The notes under the pieces were generated by a model. It had not been told where the DNA came from, did no database searches, and saw only the letters and a program-made list of their open reading frames with translations. Of a stretch of 64,000 bases of DNA, positions 46,451 to 61,364 are shown one piece after another; position 1 is the stretch's first letter, and every line of letters starts with the position of its first letter. Source of the DNA: an uncultured Formosa sp. (GTDB lineage: Bacteria > Bacteroidota > Bacteroidia > Flavobacteriales > Flavobacteriaceae); the NCBI GenBank assembly GCA_913052445.1, contig CAJXDP010000001.1, positions 123,791-187,790 on the forward strand. The letters are read 5' to 3'. The translations under genes and the position numbers were made by a program.

Positions 46451-47626
46451 TTAAAATGATTTTAAAATTTTCAGAATAATATCACATCCTTTTACCAGCT
46501 CTTTATTACTTATTGTAAGGGGTGGTGATATGCGTACAGCTCTCTTTTCATATAGAAGCCAAAATAAGATTAAACCATTTTCCTTCGCTTTAAAGATAAT
46601 TTTATTTGCAATTTCTGGAGATTTAACAATTAAAGCAAGCATTAATCCTTTCCCTCTAATATTTTCAATTAGTGGATGTTGGAGTTTTTTTCTTATAATT
46701 TTTTCTTTGGCAAGTGTGTCTGGAATTAAACTACTTTTTGTAATTTCTTGGAGAGTTGCTAGTGCAGCCGCCGCAATGACAGGGTGTCCACCAAATGTAG
46801 TTATATGGCCTAATTTGGGGTGGTCACAAAGACAGTCCATCATTTCTTTCGATCCGGTAAATGCACCTATAGGCATGCCGCCCCCAAGTCCTTTTCCAGT
46901 GACCACAACATCTGGTATACAGTTGTAGTTTTCAAATCCAAATAATTTTCCAGTTCTTCCTATTCCTGGTTGGATTTCGTCTAGAATAAATAAAGCACCA
47001 ACTTGATTACACCTCTTTTGAACTTTAGCCAAATAGTTGTTTACTGGCTCAATAAACCCAGCGCCTCCTTGTATAGTCTCTAATATTACAGCAGCTGTTT
47101 TTTTAGTGATTTTGGATATGTCTTCAAGGTTATTATATTCTACAAATCTTATATCGGGTATTAGGGGTCTAAATGGGCTTTTTCTTTCTTCATATCCCAT
47201 AATGCTCAATGCTCCCATAGTATTACCATGGTAAGCCTTGTTAGCTGCTATTATTTCAGATCTTCCCGTGAAACGACGAGCAAGTTTAATAGCTCCATCT
47301 ATGGCTTCTGTTCCTGAATTTGTTAAATAAGTTTTTTCTAATTTCGGTGGTAAATTATCTGCTAATAATTTAGATAACTTAACTGCAGGTGATTGGATAT
47401 ATTCACCATATACCATAACATGCATGTAAGAATCTAATTGATTTTTAATAGCATTTACTACTTTATAGTGTCTGTGTCCCAAACTGCAGGCTGAAATCCC
47501 AGCTACAAAATCTAAATATGGATCATTATTTTGATCATATATATATGACCCTTCAGCAAAGGAGATTTCCATCCCTAGTGGATGAGGGGTAGTTTGTGCT
47601 TGGTGTTTTAAGAAATCATTAATCAT
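46451..47626 (-). CDS. Class III aminotransferase (acetylornithine/ornithine type)
   Basis: The 391-residue PLP enzyme has the class III features: VAGISACSLGHRHYKVVNAI, the PLP phosphate loop YLTNSGTEAIDGAIKLAR, the acid in FILDEIQPGIGRTGKLF, and the PLP lysine in VVVTGKGLGGGMPIGAF. Its substrate cannot be settled; the family covers acetylornithine, ornithine and related omega-amino acids. It overlaps the end of the OstA-like gene by eight bases, an arrangement I recall from other Flavobacteriaceae, where the pairing is common. Confidence 0.9.
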   Translation of the reverse strand: MINDFLKHQAQTTPHPLGMEISFAEGSYIYDQNNDPYLDFVAGISACSLGHRHYKVVNAIKNQLDSYMHVMVYGEYIQSPAVKLSKLLADNLPPKLEKTYLTNSGTEAIDGAIKLARRFTGRSEIIAANKAYHGNTMGALSIMGYEERKSPFRPLIPDIRFVEYNNLEDISKITKKTAAVILETIQGGAGFIEPVNNYLAKVQKRCNQVGALFILDEIQPGIGRTGKLFGFENYNCIPDVVVTGKGLGGGMPIGAFTGSKEMMDCLCDHPKLGHITTFGGHPVIAAAALATLQEITKSSLIPDTLAKEKIIRKKLQHPLIENIRGKGLMLALIVKSPEIANKIIFKAKENGLILFWLLYEKRAVRISPPLTISNKELVKGCDIILKILKSF

Positions 47627-49406
47627 TTTTAATAGTCTTCTTAGTTTTGTACGTATCTTTAAATAGGTTTTTTGGAATCTTTCGAGCAGATTTATTGGTT
47701 GTGCGTTGGTTTACATCTTTTGTATTGTTATCTAATTTTGGTTCTGCTTTTTTGACTCGATCTAAAAGATTAGAATCAAAAAATATTTCATGACTAGGGT
47801 AGGAATCTAATCCTTTTATTGATTTTAGATTTAAAGGTGGATCATCTCTAAACAGATCCTTAACGCTTGTAGGACGTTCTGTTTCACGCCAATTGAATCC
47901 ACGAATAATTTTTTCATTTTCAGGAAAATCCAAAACAGGATAAGTTTTGCCACCAATCTGATTATATTTTTGCATCTCATTGATAGTGTTGTCCATCAAC
48001 CAAATTTTAATAGCCCCTGATTTTGACTTATCTATTCCAACTAATTCATTTTCTTTATTTCTGAGATAATATAAGGTTTCTGCATTTTTAATAATATCTA
48101 TAGTAGATAGACTATTATTCTTAAATAGTCCGTATAGTTTTTTCCCCGAAATCTGGTTATACCCATCTCCTAATGTATCTTTGCTAATCACAAATGCATT
48201 ATTAAATACCTTTAAGGAGTCTAAACTCTTAGAATTAGAATTTGCAATTAAGTGAATTGAATCTCCTGTAATTTGGTTACTTATGTTCCATAAAACAGGC
48301 TTTTTAGTTTTATAGAATGCATCTTGAGTTGTATTAATATTTAAATTTATAAGTTGGATTAAACCGTTGTTTTGGTTCATGTGAATGGAATCTGCTTTGC
48401 CACTTAAATCAGACTTGTATATTTTTGCATTATAATAACCTCTTATTATTCTTTTTTTTGGTTTGCCTGTTACCATTATGCTGTCGCTGTGTACAAATAT
48501 TGAGTCATTTTCTTGTAATGTAATTGCTAATGCTCGTTGTGTTATGAATAATGAATCCTTTTCCCTAAACACTTCTGCGTAGTGACCTTTTATAATAGTA
48601 TTATTGAGTGTATCTGTTATTACAATGTTATTAGTTGCCGAGGCAAAACTCTTACTACGGTTAAAATATATACTGTCTCCTTCAACAACTCGCTCATCAT
48701 AATTTATTTTTGATTCTTTTACAAAATAACCAGTATCGTTATTTGTGTTATAAAAACCACGTTTACAATATATCACGCTTGTCTCACTAGTAATTGTTGT
48801 AGGACCATACAAAAAGGCATAGCCTGATAGACTATAAAAATCAAGTCGATTAGATTTAATTATATATTCAGGATTGACCAGTTTAACATTTTTTTTGAAC
48901 TCATATTTTTTATTTTTTAAGTAATAACGACCAATGAGACTTGTAATTATTGCTGTAGAGTCTCTAACTACCTTTCCTTTACTTTGATAAAAAGCTTGTT
49001 GCTTAATTCTATCAAAGTATAAAGTATCTGTTTTTATAACCGAGTTTTGATCTTCTAAGATAACTTTACCACTTGCAAATGCTAGTTCGGTTTTACCACT
49101 GTATTCAACATAATTTGAGGTCATGTTTATTGTGTCCCCTTGCTTTATTTTAACTTTTCCATAGGCCTCTATAAAATCTTGTTTAGCGTCATAAATGGCT
49201 TCGTCACACCACATCTCGATTCCTTGATGTTTGATGTGCACTTGTTTAGAATTATCCCGAGTTAGTATTGTGGCATCTGGTTTAGATTCATCAAAAGTCA
49301 TAAACGGCGCAAATTCAATTTCAATCTTTCTACGATCTTGAGCGTGAAGGGTAGTACCCAATAAAATTAGTAAGCAACATATGATTTTAAAACTTGTATA
49401 ATTCAA
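47619..49406 (-). CDS. OstA-like protein (LptA/LptD N-terminal type)
   Basis: The 595-residue exported protein has a signal peptide (IICCLLILLGTTLHAQ) and then a long beta-jellyroll made of repeated OstA/LptA units, for example IEAYGKVKIKQGDTINMTSNYVEYSGKTELAFASGKVILEDQNSVIKTDTLYFDR. It has no LptD barrel. It should bridge or receive LPS in the periplasm with LptB encoded in this window. The start in the track is TTG. It is the first gene of a pair with the aminotransferase. Confidence 0.9.
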   Translation of the reverse strand: MNYTSFKIICCLLILLGTTLHAQDRRKIEIEFAPFMTFDESKPDATILTRDNSKQVHIKHQGIEMWCDEAIYDAKQDFIEAYGKVKIKQGDTINMTSNYVEYSGKTELAFASGKVILEDQNSVIKTDTLYFDRIKQQAFYQSKGKVVRDSTAIITSLIGRYYLKNKKYEFKKNVKLVNPEYIIKSNRLDFYSLSGYAFLYGPTTITSETSVIYCKRGFYNTNNDTGYFVKESKINYDERVVEGDSIYFNRSKSFASATNNIVITDTLNNTIIKGHYAEVFREKDSLFITQRALAITLQENDSIFVHSDSIMVTGKPKKRIIRGYYNAKIYKSDLSGKADSIHMNQNNGLIQLINLNINTTQDAFYKTKKPVLWNISNQITGDSIHLIANSNSKSLDSLKVFNNAFVISKDTLGDGYNQISGKKLYGLFKNNSLSTIDIIKNAETLYYLRNKENELVGIDKSKSGAIKIWLMDNTINEMQKYNQIGGKTYPVLDFPENEKIIRGFNWRETERPTSVKDLFRDDPPLNLKSIKGLDSYPSHEIFFDSNLLDRVKKAEPKLDNNTKDVNQRTTNKSARKIPKNLFKDTYKTKKTIKND

Positions 49407-59236: not shown

Positions 59237-60358
59237 TCAAATTCCAGATTTTATTATTTTAATTATTTCATTTTTAATTCTTAAGTAATATATACCCTCA
59301 GGAAATTGAGATAAGTCAATTTGTTTGTTTTCTCCCTTTAGAGTTCCCTTAACTAATAGTTGTCCTAAGGCAGATATAAGTTCGTAATTAACATCTTCAT
59401 TTTCTTTAATGTTAAGTAAAGTGTTTGTTGGATTTGGATAAGCTTTAATAGAAATATTTATCGTATTTGATCCAAGTAGATCACATTCAAAGCTATCTTC
59501 AACTTTCGAAGCTTCAGCAGGGTTTTCCAATAGATCTCCCTTTATCAATGCGCAATAACATTCATCTTTATCCACATATAGTTTGAGCCATGAAAGAGCT
59601 AACTTTCCAACTATTCCGTTTCCTCCATTTGGTGAGTTAGCGACTGAGTGATTTCCATTTACGATTTCAAATAGCAGTTTATTTGTAGTCTCTGGAGTAG
59701 AATTATAATGAATGTCAGAGTGTAACTCAGGTGGTGCTATAGGATCATTTTCACCACTAAAAATTAACAAGGAACTTTCGTGATTTAGATTAATATTTAA
59801 TAGATAAGGGCATAAGGCTATAACTCCAGATATTCTGTCATCTAGGACTGCAGCTCTCTGAGCACCGCCACCCCCCATCGACCATCCGCTAACAGCTAAT
59901 TTATTTAAATCAAGGTTGCCTTCAAGCGGTGAGCTAATCCTACTGTTTTCCTGTCTTATAGTCTCTAATGCATCTAATAAAGCATAGGCTCTAGCTTCAG
60001 GAAAATCATACACACTGTTAGTACCTATGATAATCGTTACAATTCCATGTGAGGCATAGAATGGACCCCATTCTTCAACACTTGATGGATATGCCGTAAA
60101 GCCAGGGACAATTGCAATACTTGCAAATGGTGGGCTGGCATTTATAGGGTAATAGATAGTGGCTCCAAAATAGTCTGGCCCATTACGAATTCCGTCAGAT
60201 TCACTTAGTGTTTGCACCTCAAATGGTCCGGGATCAGTTAAGCTTTCAATTGAAACTTCGCCACATTGTGCAAATACAACGCACGTGTATGGCGTTGAAA
60301 TGAGTATGACTAAACACGCTACTAGTATTTTTTTTAACTTTCTGACGTCTTTATAAAT
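59237..60358 (-). CDS. PETase-like polyester hydrolase with T9SS sorting domain; no canonical start codon
   Basis: The ORF track begins at an internal GTG (60217). The same frame is open upstream to 60358 and encodes a signal peptide, KLKKILVACLVILISTPYTCVVFAQ, then GPFEVQTLSESDGI. No ATG, GTG or TTG occurs between the upstream stop and 60217, so I start at the ATT at 60358 (373 residues). The fold is the cutinase/PETase type: GWSMGGGG (Ser160), ENDPIAPP (Asp205), NGNHSVAN (His237), oxyanion PGFTA (Phe87), Trp159 and the extended C-terminal loop NHSVANSPNGGNGIVGK. The PETase-specific second disulfide cysteines are absent; a later pair (CYCALI, SFEC) may bridge. Residues 305-373 (KAYPNPTNTLLNI to the end) are a type IX secretion sorting domain. 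Confidence 0.85.
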   Translation of the reverse strand: MYKDVRKLKKILVACLVILISTPYTCVVFAQCGEVSIESLTDPGPFEVQTLSESDGIRNGPDYFGATIYYPINASPPFASIAIVPGFTAYPSSVEEWGPFYASHGIVTIIIGTNSVYDFPEARAYALLDALETIRQENSRISSPLEGNLDLNKLAVSGWSMGGGGAQRAAVLDDRISGVIALCPYLLNINLNHESSLLIFSGENDPIAPPELHSDIHYNSTPETTNKLLFEIVNGNHSVANSPNGGNGIVGKLALSWLKLYVDKDECYCALIKGDLLENPAEASKVEDSFECDLLGSNTINISIKAYPNPTNTLLNIKENEDVNYELISALGQLLVKGTLKGENKQIDLSQFPEGIYYLRIKNEIIKIIKSGI

Positions 60359-60389
60359 TACTTTTAATTATTTTTAATTTGGAATTAGC

Positions 60390-61364
60390 TTATTTTGTAC
60401 AATCAGCTGGAATACTTTCTTCTGCCATAAAATCCGCACATGTATTACAAATTAAGCTTTTGAAGAAACATGCAACCCTGTTAATTCTAAAGTCAATGTC
60501 ACTTTTAGACCTATAAATATCATGACCCCCATTAGGGACAATAGTTAAGTCGTTACATATTCCAGCTTCAGTAAGAATTTTATGAATTGGTCTTGACCCC
60601 AAACCTGTCATTATATTTTTTCCAATAGGAACTGTCGTGTCGAGGTCCCCATGGAATGAAATAGTAGGAATTAAATCTCCTGAACTAAAAACAACAGGTG
60701 GGATTGCACCCATGAAATTGTAAATGCCTTTAATGGTAAAAATTTCATTTAGACTATTATCAGAAGATTGTAAGGGGCCCAATTCTGATTCAAATAGAGG
60801 GACTATTTGATTCCATTCTCCCTGACTCGCATAGCTAGTTGATAATGAGGTGATCGCGCCAGCGCTAGAACCTCCAATAAAAATCCATGAAGTATCAATT
60901 TTCAGTTTTTCTATTTGAGTAGCAATATAACTGAGCGCTGAATTAGCATCTTGCTGCGCCCTGTAAGCTGCTTTTTGAACCCCACCAAAATCTTCACTAT
61001 CATAACCTAGGCGATAGCTTATTGTGGCCACTACAAACCCTCTTTTAGATAGCTCTACAGAGTGATAGGTCATTCTTTGTCTGTTCCCGCCTGTAAAACC
61101 ACCTCCGTGAATAAGAAGTATAAAGGGGCGCTTTTCTGCAATATCTATATCAGTATTTGGAAAATATATATCCATTTTCAAGTTTTGTGAGTATCCTCTG
61201 TAATCAGTGGCCTCTCCGTAGGTGATATTTTTAAGAGAATCAATTTGGTTATTTGAAAAATATTCATCGTTTGTAAAACGTAGTTCCGGAGTGCATATTT
61301 GTGCTGAGGCGTATTGAATAGTCAGTAATACGTATGAAATGTATAATAGCTTATTGTAATTCAT
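60390..61364 (-). CDS. Secreted alpha/beta-hydrolase carboxylesterase
   Basis: The 324-residue protein has a signal peptide (LLYISYVLLTIQYASAQ) and a carboxylesterase core: oxyanion motif HGGGFTGGN near 87, nucleophile GGSSAGAI near 164, acid FHGDLDTTVP and base GGHDIY. It has no type IX sorting domain and ends in cysteine pairs (LICNTCADF, PADCTK), which suggests a periplasmic or exported disulfide-stabilised enzyme. It lies 31 bases upstream of the PETase-like frame on the same strand, so the two form an operon. A role on ester products of the partner is an inference. Confidence 0.87.
   Translation of the reverse strand: MNYNKLLYISYVLLTIQYASAQICTPELRFTNDEYFSNNQIDSLKNITYGEATDYRGYSQNLKMDIYFPNTDIDIAEKRPFILLIHGGGFTGGNRQRMTYHSVELSKRGFVVATISYRLGYDSEDFGGVQKAAYRAQQDANSALSYIATQIEKLKIDTSWIFIGGSSAGAITSLSTSYASQGEWNQIVPLFESELGPLQSSDNSLNEIFTIKGIYNFMGAIPPVVFSSGDLIPTISFHGDLDTTVPIGKNIMTGLGSRPIHKILTEAGICNDLTIVPNGGHDIYRSKSDIDFRINRVACFFKSLICNTCADFMAEESIPADCTK

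Follow-up and report, generated by a model that had tools for sequence, protein, structure and literature searches.

A hydrolase gene without a canonical start codon in an uncultured Formosa lineage, and its probable translation from a near-cognate AUH codon

On the minus strand of the 64,000-nucleotide stretch of DNA that we analysed (the window), from an uncultured Formosa sp., a hydrolase frame encodes a signal peptide upstream of its first canonical start codon, and the question raised by this locus is where translation of the enzyme begins. Comparison with orthologues leads us to consider it likely that the hydrolase is translated from a near-cognate AUH codon that took the place of a lost ATG, and that this arrangement is a long-standing feature of the lineage. 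The features of the locus are listed below; L002, L003 and L004 denote the orthologous loci of three congeners.

59237 to 60367, minus strand: open frame of a predicted secreted PETase-like alpha/beta hydrolase, with signal peptide, PF12740 domain and C-terminal Por_Secre_tail (T9SS sorting domain)
59237 to 60217, minus strand: portion expected from a standard gene caller, with a GTG start, 326 aa, lacking the signal peptide
60269 to 60337, minus strand: signal peptide, with KK n-region, ILVACLVIL hydrophobic core and cleavage after FAQ; hydrophobic residues retained in 4/4 species
60356 to 60358, minus strand: ATT candidate start, slightly favoured; product M YKDVRKLKKILVACLVILISTPYTCVVFAQ followed by C, with the positively charged n-region retained
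60326 to 60328, minus strand: ATA candidate start; product M LVACLVILISTPYTCVVFAQ followed by C; the sole near-cognate codon that all four species share, unchanged, at a homologous site
60335 to 60337, minus strand: TTA where the ancestral gene had ATG; L002 has TCA, L003 TTT and L004 TTA, and more distant orthologues have ATG
60390 to 61364, minus strand: upstream secreted esterase-like gene, with BD-FAE/COesterase matches; also immediately upstream in congeners

The open frame and its product

Codons of the hydrolase frame occupy minus-strand positions equal to 1 modulo 3. After the TAA at 60370-60368 they read TTA AAA GTA ATT(60358) TAT AAA GAC GTC AGA AAG, continuing TTA AAA AAA ATA(60328) CTA GTA GCG TGT TTA GTC ATA(60307) CTC ATT(60301) TCA ACG ... 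GAG GTG(60217), and the translation of this open stretch begins LKVIYKDVRKLKKILVACLVILISTPYTCVVFAQCGEVS. A sequence-only reading of the window had reported a textbook signal peptide with no ATG, GTG or TTG between the TAA and the GTG at 60217, and the minus-strand codons confirm this: no such codon lies in frame between the two. The mechanical list of open reading frames places the start at GTG 60217, which removes the entire signal peptide. The same reading had offered ATT at 60358 or 60301 and ATA at 60328 as the available starts; all three are present, but the list was incomplete, the ATA at 60307 having been overlooked. Its placing of the esterase stop (60392-60390, minus strand) 31 nt upstream of ATT 60358, and its count of eight A in the A run, were both correct.

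The product matches PF12740 (PETase-like) with an E value of 1.5e-54 and carries a C-terminal Por_Secre_tail, a T9SS sorting domain, at 7.2e-12. Among solved structures its closest relative is PET30 from Kaistella jeonii (7pzj, 3.4e-128), with which the G-x-S-x-G nucleophile motif and the conserved Asp and His are aligned (GWSMGG, SGENDP and GNHSV). Judged from its sequence, the window gene is a functional secreted PETase-like hydrolase and a relative of PET27 and PET30, with PET hydrolysis itself putative.

Absence of a canonical start among congeners and loss of the ancestral ATG

The hydrolase gene is present in 4 of the 18 genomes of the genus that were examined, that of the window included, and the three congener orthologues share 73-77% protein identity with the window hydrolase. 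Their 5' ends read TAA GAA ATT CAA AAT TCA AAA AAA ATA CTA ... (L002), TAA CTA ATC AAA GAA CTT ATT AAA AAT TTT AAT AAA ATA CTA ... (L003) and TAA GGA ATT AAA AAT TTA AAA AAA ATA ATA ... (L004). None of the three has a canonical start ahead of the hydrophobic core; canonical codons occur inside it, five or seven codons in (TTG and ATG in L002 and L004, GTG in L003). Pairwise dS across the four species is 0.67-1.24 and dN is 0.10-0.17, with dN/dS of about 0.13, and these are therefore four old lineages under purifying selection. The seven codons from the ATA onward vary 6, 1 and 4 times at codon positions 1, 2 and 3, and hydrophobic or small residues are retained in nearly all 28 cases, a pattern from which we conclude that coding constraint is extended upstream of any canonical codon. 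The only near-cognate, single-mismatch starts common to all four species are AUH, i.e., ATT and ATA. The suggestion in the sequence-only reading that an unusual ATT or ATA start is used thus gains support from the lack of canonical starts in four species under purifying selection.

Beyond these four species the picture is different. All 17 distant orthologues that were fetched, from Aequorivita, Ulvibacter, Patiriisocius, Psychroflexus, Polaribacter and other flavobacteria, start with ATG, mostly as MKK, immediately ahead of the hydrophobic core; more family members agree, counting only those read in the correct orientation, with several loci uninformative. An ATG at the orthologous locus, which had been proposed as a check, is therefore lacking in the close relatives but present in the more distant ones. 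With the sequences in register at the AQC cleavage site, the place of the ancestral ATG is taken by TTA in the window, TCA in L002, TTT in L003 and TTA in L004. Since the ATG of the distant orthologues is replaced in all four species, it was lost within the genus, most simply by a single event in an ancestor shared by a sub-group of its species. A simple route would be ATG to TTG to TTA, with an adjacent AUH codon taking over. The loss may have been selected for regulation or tolerated under drift.

AUU, AUA and other routes to a product

As to which AUH codon is used, we put the AUU (60358; in the congeners, an in-frame ATT that precedes the ATA by six codons) at about an even chance. Initiation there would give the N-termini MKNLKKIIIACL, MQNSKKILVACL, MKNFNKILLTYL and MYKDVRKLKKILVACL in the four species, and predicted N-termini such as MKNLKKIIIACL are typical. 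In a crude scan of fetched flavobacterial DNA, a K or R was present in the n-region of 46/46 signal peptides, as it was in 22/22 in another scan, and AUU is slightly favoured because it retains the n-region lysines, as in all 46 sampled signal peptides. In-frame ATT codons occur in L002, L003 and L004 too, at a site that is not homologous with the ATT of the window; the ATA is homologous across four species and the ATT across three only. An indel of about 150-190 nt placed different upstream DNA beside the A run in the window, and use of AUU would require fresh recruitment of the window's ATT. Such recruitment is not improbable: from composition, we estimate that an in-frame ATH would occur by chance before a stop in about 60% of cases in AT-rich DNA. 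Scored against a matrix built on start sites of the same genome, the ATT contexts fall between the 8th and 33rd percentiles; the ATA context outscores the ATT in three of four species and is poor in L003.

The AUA at 60328 is a serious but less probable candidate. Were it the start, the AAA AAA before it would now be non-coding and serve as initiation context, and the signal peptide would lack lysine. It is the sole near-cognate codon homologous in four species, with an invariant third position while neighboring codons vary; it was left untouched by the window's rearrangement, which is situated immediately before the A run; and infC in Flavobacteriaceae starts at AUA. In 4/4 species the ATA has A at -3, -6, -12 and -13, and A at such upstream positions promotes initiation in F. 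johnsoniae (PMC6847099). Against this, a start at AUA would drop the K or R ahead of the core that was seen throughout the 46 sampled signal peptides, the upstream A residues derive from ancestral lysine codons, and the L003 context is at the 8th percentile. In the same genome, A at -3 and -6 has frequencies of 0.48 and 0.45 versus 0.45 for local composition, so we rejected these Kozak-like adenines as a discriminator; without enrichment over composition, the match at the ATA is weak evidence. Folding revealed no common RNA structure around the ATA.

A start within the signal peptide, at the codon seven into the core, is unlikely. This codon (60307 and its homologues) is ATA in the window, ATG in L002, GTG in L003 and ATG in L004, so three of four species have a canonical codon there, but the window does not; initiation at this point would leave 14 residues (MLVTTQYTDVVLAQ) with neither a charged n-region nor a real core, which fail a crude signal-peptide test, the contexts lie in the 1st to 8th percentiles, and the seven codons upstream are still constrained as hydrophobic. 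The presence of a start-competent codon at this position in each of the four species is probably due to chance, although it could be the source of a second, truncated product.

That translation of the hydrolase depends on the upstream esterase, through coupling or re-initiation, is very unlikely. The proximity of the esterase stop to the ATT of the window, and a gene order common to the congeners, speak for it; in L002, L003 and L004, however, where the hydrolase gene is equally start-less, about 200-240 nt separate the two genes, and coupling, one of the options in the sequence-only reading, consequently fails as a general explanation. At most, it could add to initiation in the species of the window. 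Up to the ATA, the gap between esterase and hydrolase measures about 60 nt in the window versus about 200-250 nt in the congeners. The alignment (score 25.5, 0/1000 shuffles) pairs the upstream DNA of the window with the distal end of the gap in L004, and the indel therefore shifted the junction to the very edge of the A run. We considered and rejected the idea that the congeners' intergenic stretch of 250 nt is a mobile repeat, its matches elsewhere being only short and AT rich, and no relatives were found in viral contigs.

Still less credible is a cytosolic enzyme initiated at GTG 60217, as the gene caller reports. This is the first canonical start in the hydrolase frame, but the signal peptide with its cleavage site and the T9SS sorting tail are both conserved and make such a product implausible; the corresponding codon is GTA in L002, and a start there removes the conserved beginning of the mature protein. 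The sequence-only reading had likewise objected that this start yields a cytosolic enzyme with a useless secretion tail. The A8 homopolymer at the site offers a pretext for assuming a sequencing or assembly error, or a newly arisen mutation, in the A run, but both can be dismissed: three other, independently assembled species at dS of about 1 share the absence, L003, with TTT AAT AAA ATA and its frame intact, has no A8 run, and no change of frame is needed. On these comparisons, error, recent mutation and pseudogene status are excluded as causes of the missing start.

A programmed frameshift is excluded in the window, where no open reading frame that begins at a canonical codon in either of the remaining frames reaches the open stretch of the hydrolase. 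No such frame was found upstream of the region in L002, and short, unrelated other-frame ORFs in L003 and L004 end 32 and 16 nt short of the ATA. We also surveyed 107 coding-like genes over 243 kb of the same contig for start-less genes, and only prfB, ranked first, and the hydrolase, ranked second, stood out by coding sequence that clearly continues ahead of their first canonical start. prfB is known for its programmed +1 frameshift, and the sequence AGGAGG TAT CTT TGA C found here is the standard form. It resembles the hydrolase gene in having an N-terminal part that is unreachable from an in-frame canonical start, and is the only other gene in the 243 kb to stand out in this way; in contrast to the hydrolase gene, it offers an out-of-frame ATG and the slip site CTT TGA C. 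prfB lies at about 47625-48830 of G000:C1 (L073), minus strand, and reads ATGATAACACAAGATCAC...TTAAGGAGGTATCTTTGAC with the +1 frameshift; its Shine-Dalgarno-like AGGAGG is intact although the lineage rarely uses such sequences.

AUH starts in infC and comparison with known systems

In the Flavobacteriaceae infC loci read (L057-L070 and L092-L120), the gene opens with an invariant ATA GCA (MA[IL]RR...), even where a stop lies one codon upstream; no canonical start was seen at the 5' end in the genus or the wider family. About eight loci were missed by the motif, and where a GTG was listed for a locus, it is placed, on our reading, deeper within the gene. In genome G015 the first ATA of infC has a start context at the 91st percentile, and the second ATA one at the 16th. 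From this conservation, AUA appears to be a working start codon in the lineage of the window; our literature searches found no description of an invariant ATA start in Flavobacteriaceae infC. Loss of IF3 from the start-less species was considered and rejected: G015 has infC, and its absence from G000, G016 and G017 reflects an assembly gap. At G000:C37:1, G016:C1:46809 and G017:C224:10173 the contig ends inside or near rpmI, next to rplT, hiding infC; contig ends at rpmI in three of the four start-less genomes look like a shared short-read assembly break.

With an AUH start, the ordinary initiator tRNA would begin the hydrolase at a near-cognate codon. Such initiation would be inefficient and normally opposed by IF3, with low output to be expected, and output would rise with a shortage of IF3 relative to 30S subunits, as it does for infC. 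Low, IF3-sensitive production of the secreted hydrolase is thus the most likely consequence. That the fixed loss of the ATG, in the absence of a Shine-Dalgarno sequence, brought the hydrolase under infC-like control through its AUH start and IF3 sensitivity, within a small set of IF3-tuned genes, is a tentative proposal that we hold to be doubtful. The locus also exposes a systematic annotation fault: callers restricted to ATG, GTG and TTG would give a signal-less cytosolic enzyme, so that surveys of plastic-active enzymes would overlook a secreted PETase-like hydrolase.

The nearest parallel is infC itself. In E. coli the gene starts at AUU, and the opposition of IF3 to AUU and AUA starts is established there. 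Together with the AUA of S. aureus and Flavobacteriaceae infC, this resembles the window gene in that a long-conserved AUH replaces a canonical start and sensitivity to IF3 is expected; infC, however, is a self-regulating initiation-factor gene, whereas the product of the window gene is a secreted hydrolase, for which feedback has no obvious rationale. To our knowledge, conserved non-canonical starts outside infC are few and come mostly from bacteria with strong Shine-Dalgarno sequences, and the ribosomes of Bacteroidota do not use Shine-Dalgarno pairing; a natural case in this phylum would offer a direct test of the choice of AUU or AUA without such pairing. In S. aureus, initiation profiling has shown that infC and ccpN start at AUA and cvfC1 at AUU, and that these starts are conserved; output from reporters was strongly reduced with the non-canonical starts tested, and the same paper also states that IF3 opposes AUU and AUA starts (PMC13009471). 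ccpN and cvfC1 are comparable to the window gene as holders of conserved, throttling start codons outside infC, but they have strong extended Shine-Dalgarno motifs and the window hydrolase has none, just as the S. aureus infC start is supported by an extended Shine-Dalgarno that Flavobacteria lack.

As an enzyme, the window hydrolase has close counterparts. The best segment of the locus from Aequorivita sp. CIP111184 (L025), which we take to be the source strain of PET27, is 72% identical to it. Both PET27 (Aequorivita sp. CIP111184) and PET30 (Kaistella jeonii, PDB 7PZJ) have been described (PMC8767016). The window hydrolase belongs to the same family and has the same layout of signal peptide, PETase-like domain and T9SS/PorC tail; the Aequorivita gene opens with ATG AAA AAA, whereas in the lineage of the window that ATG is missing.
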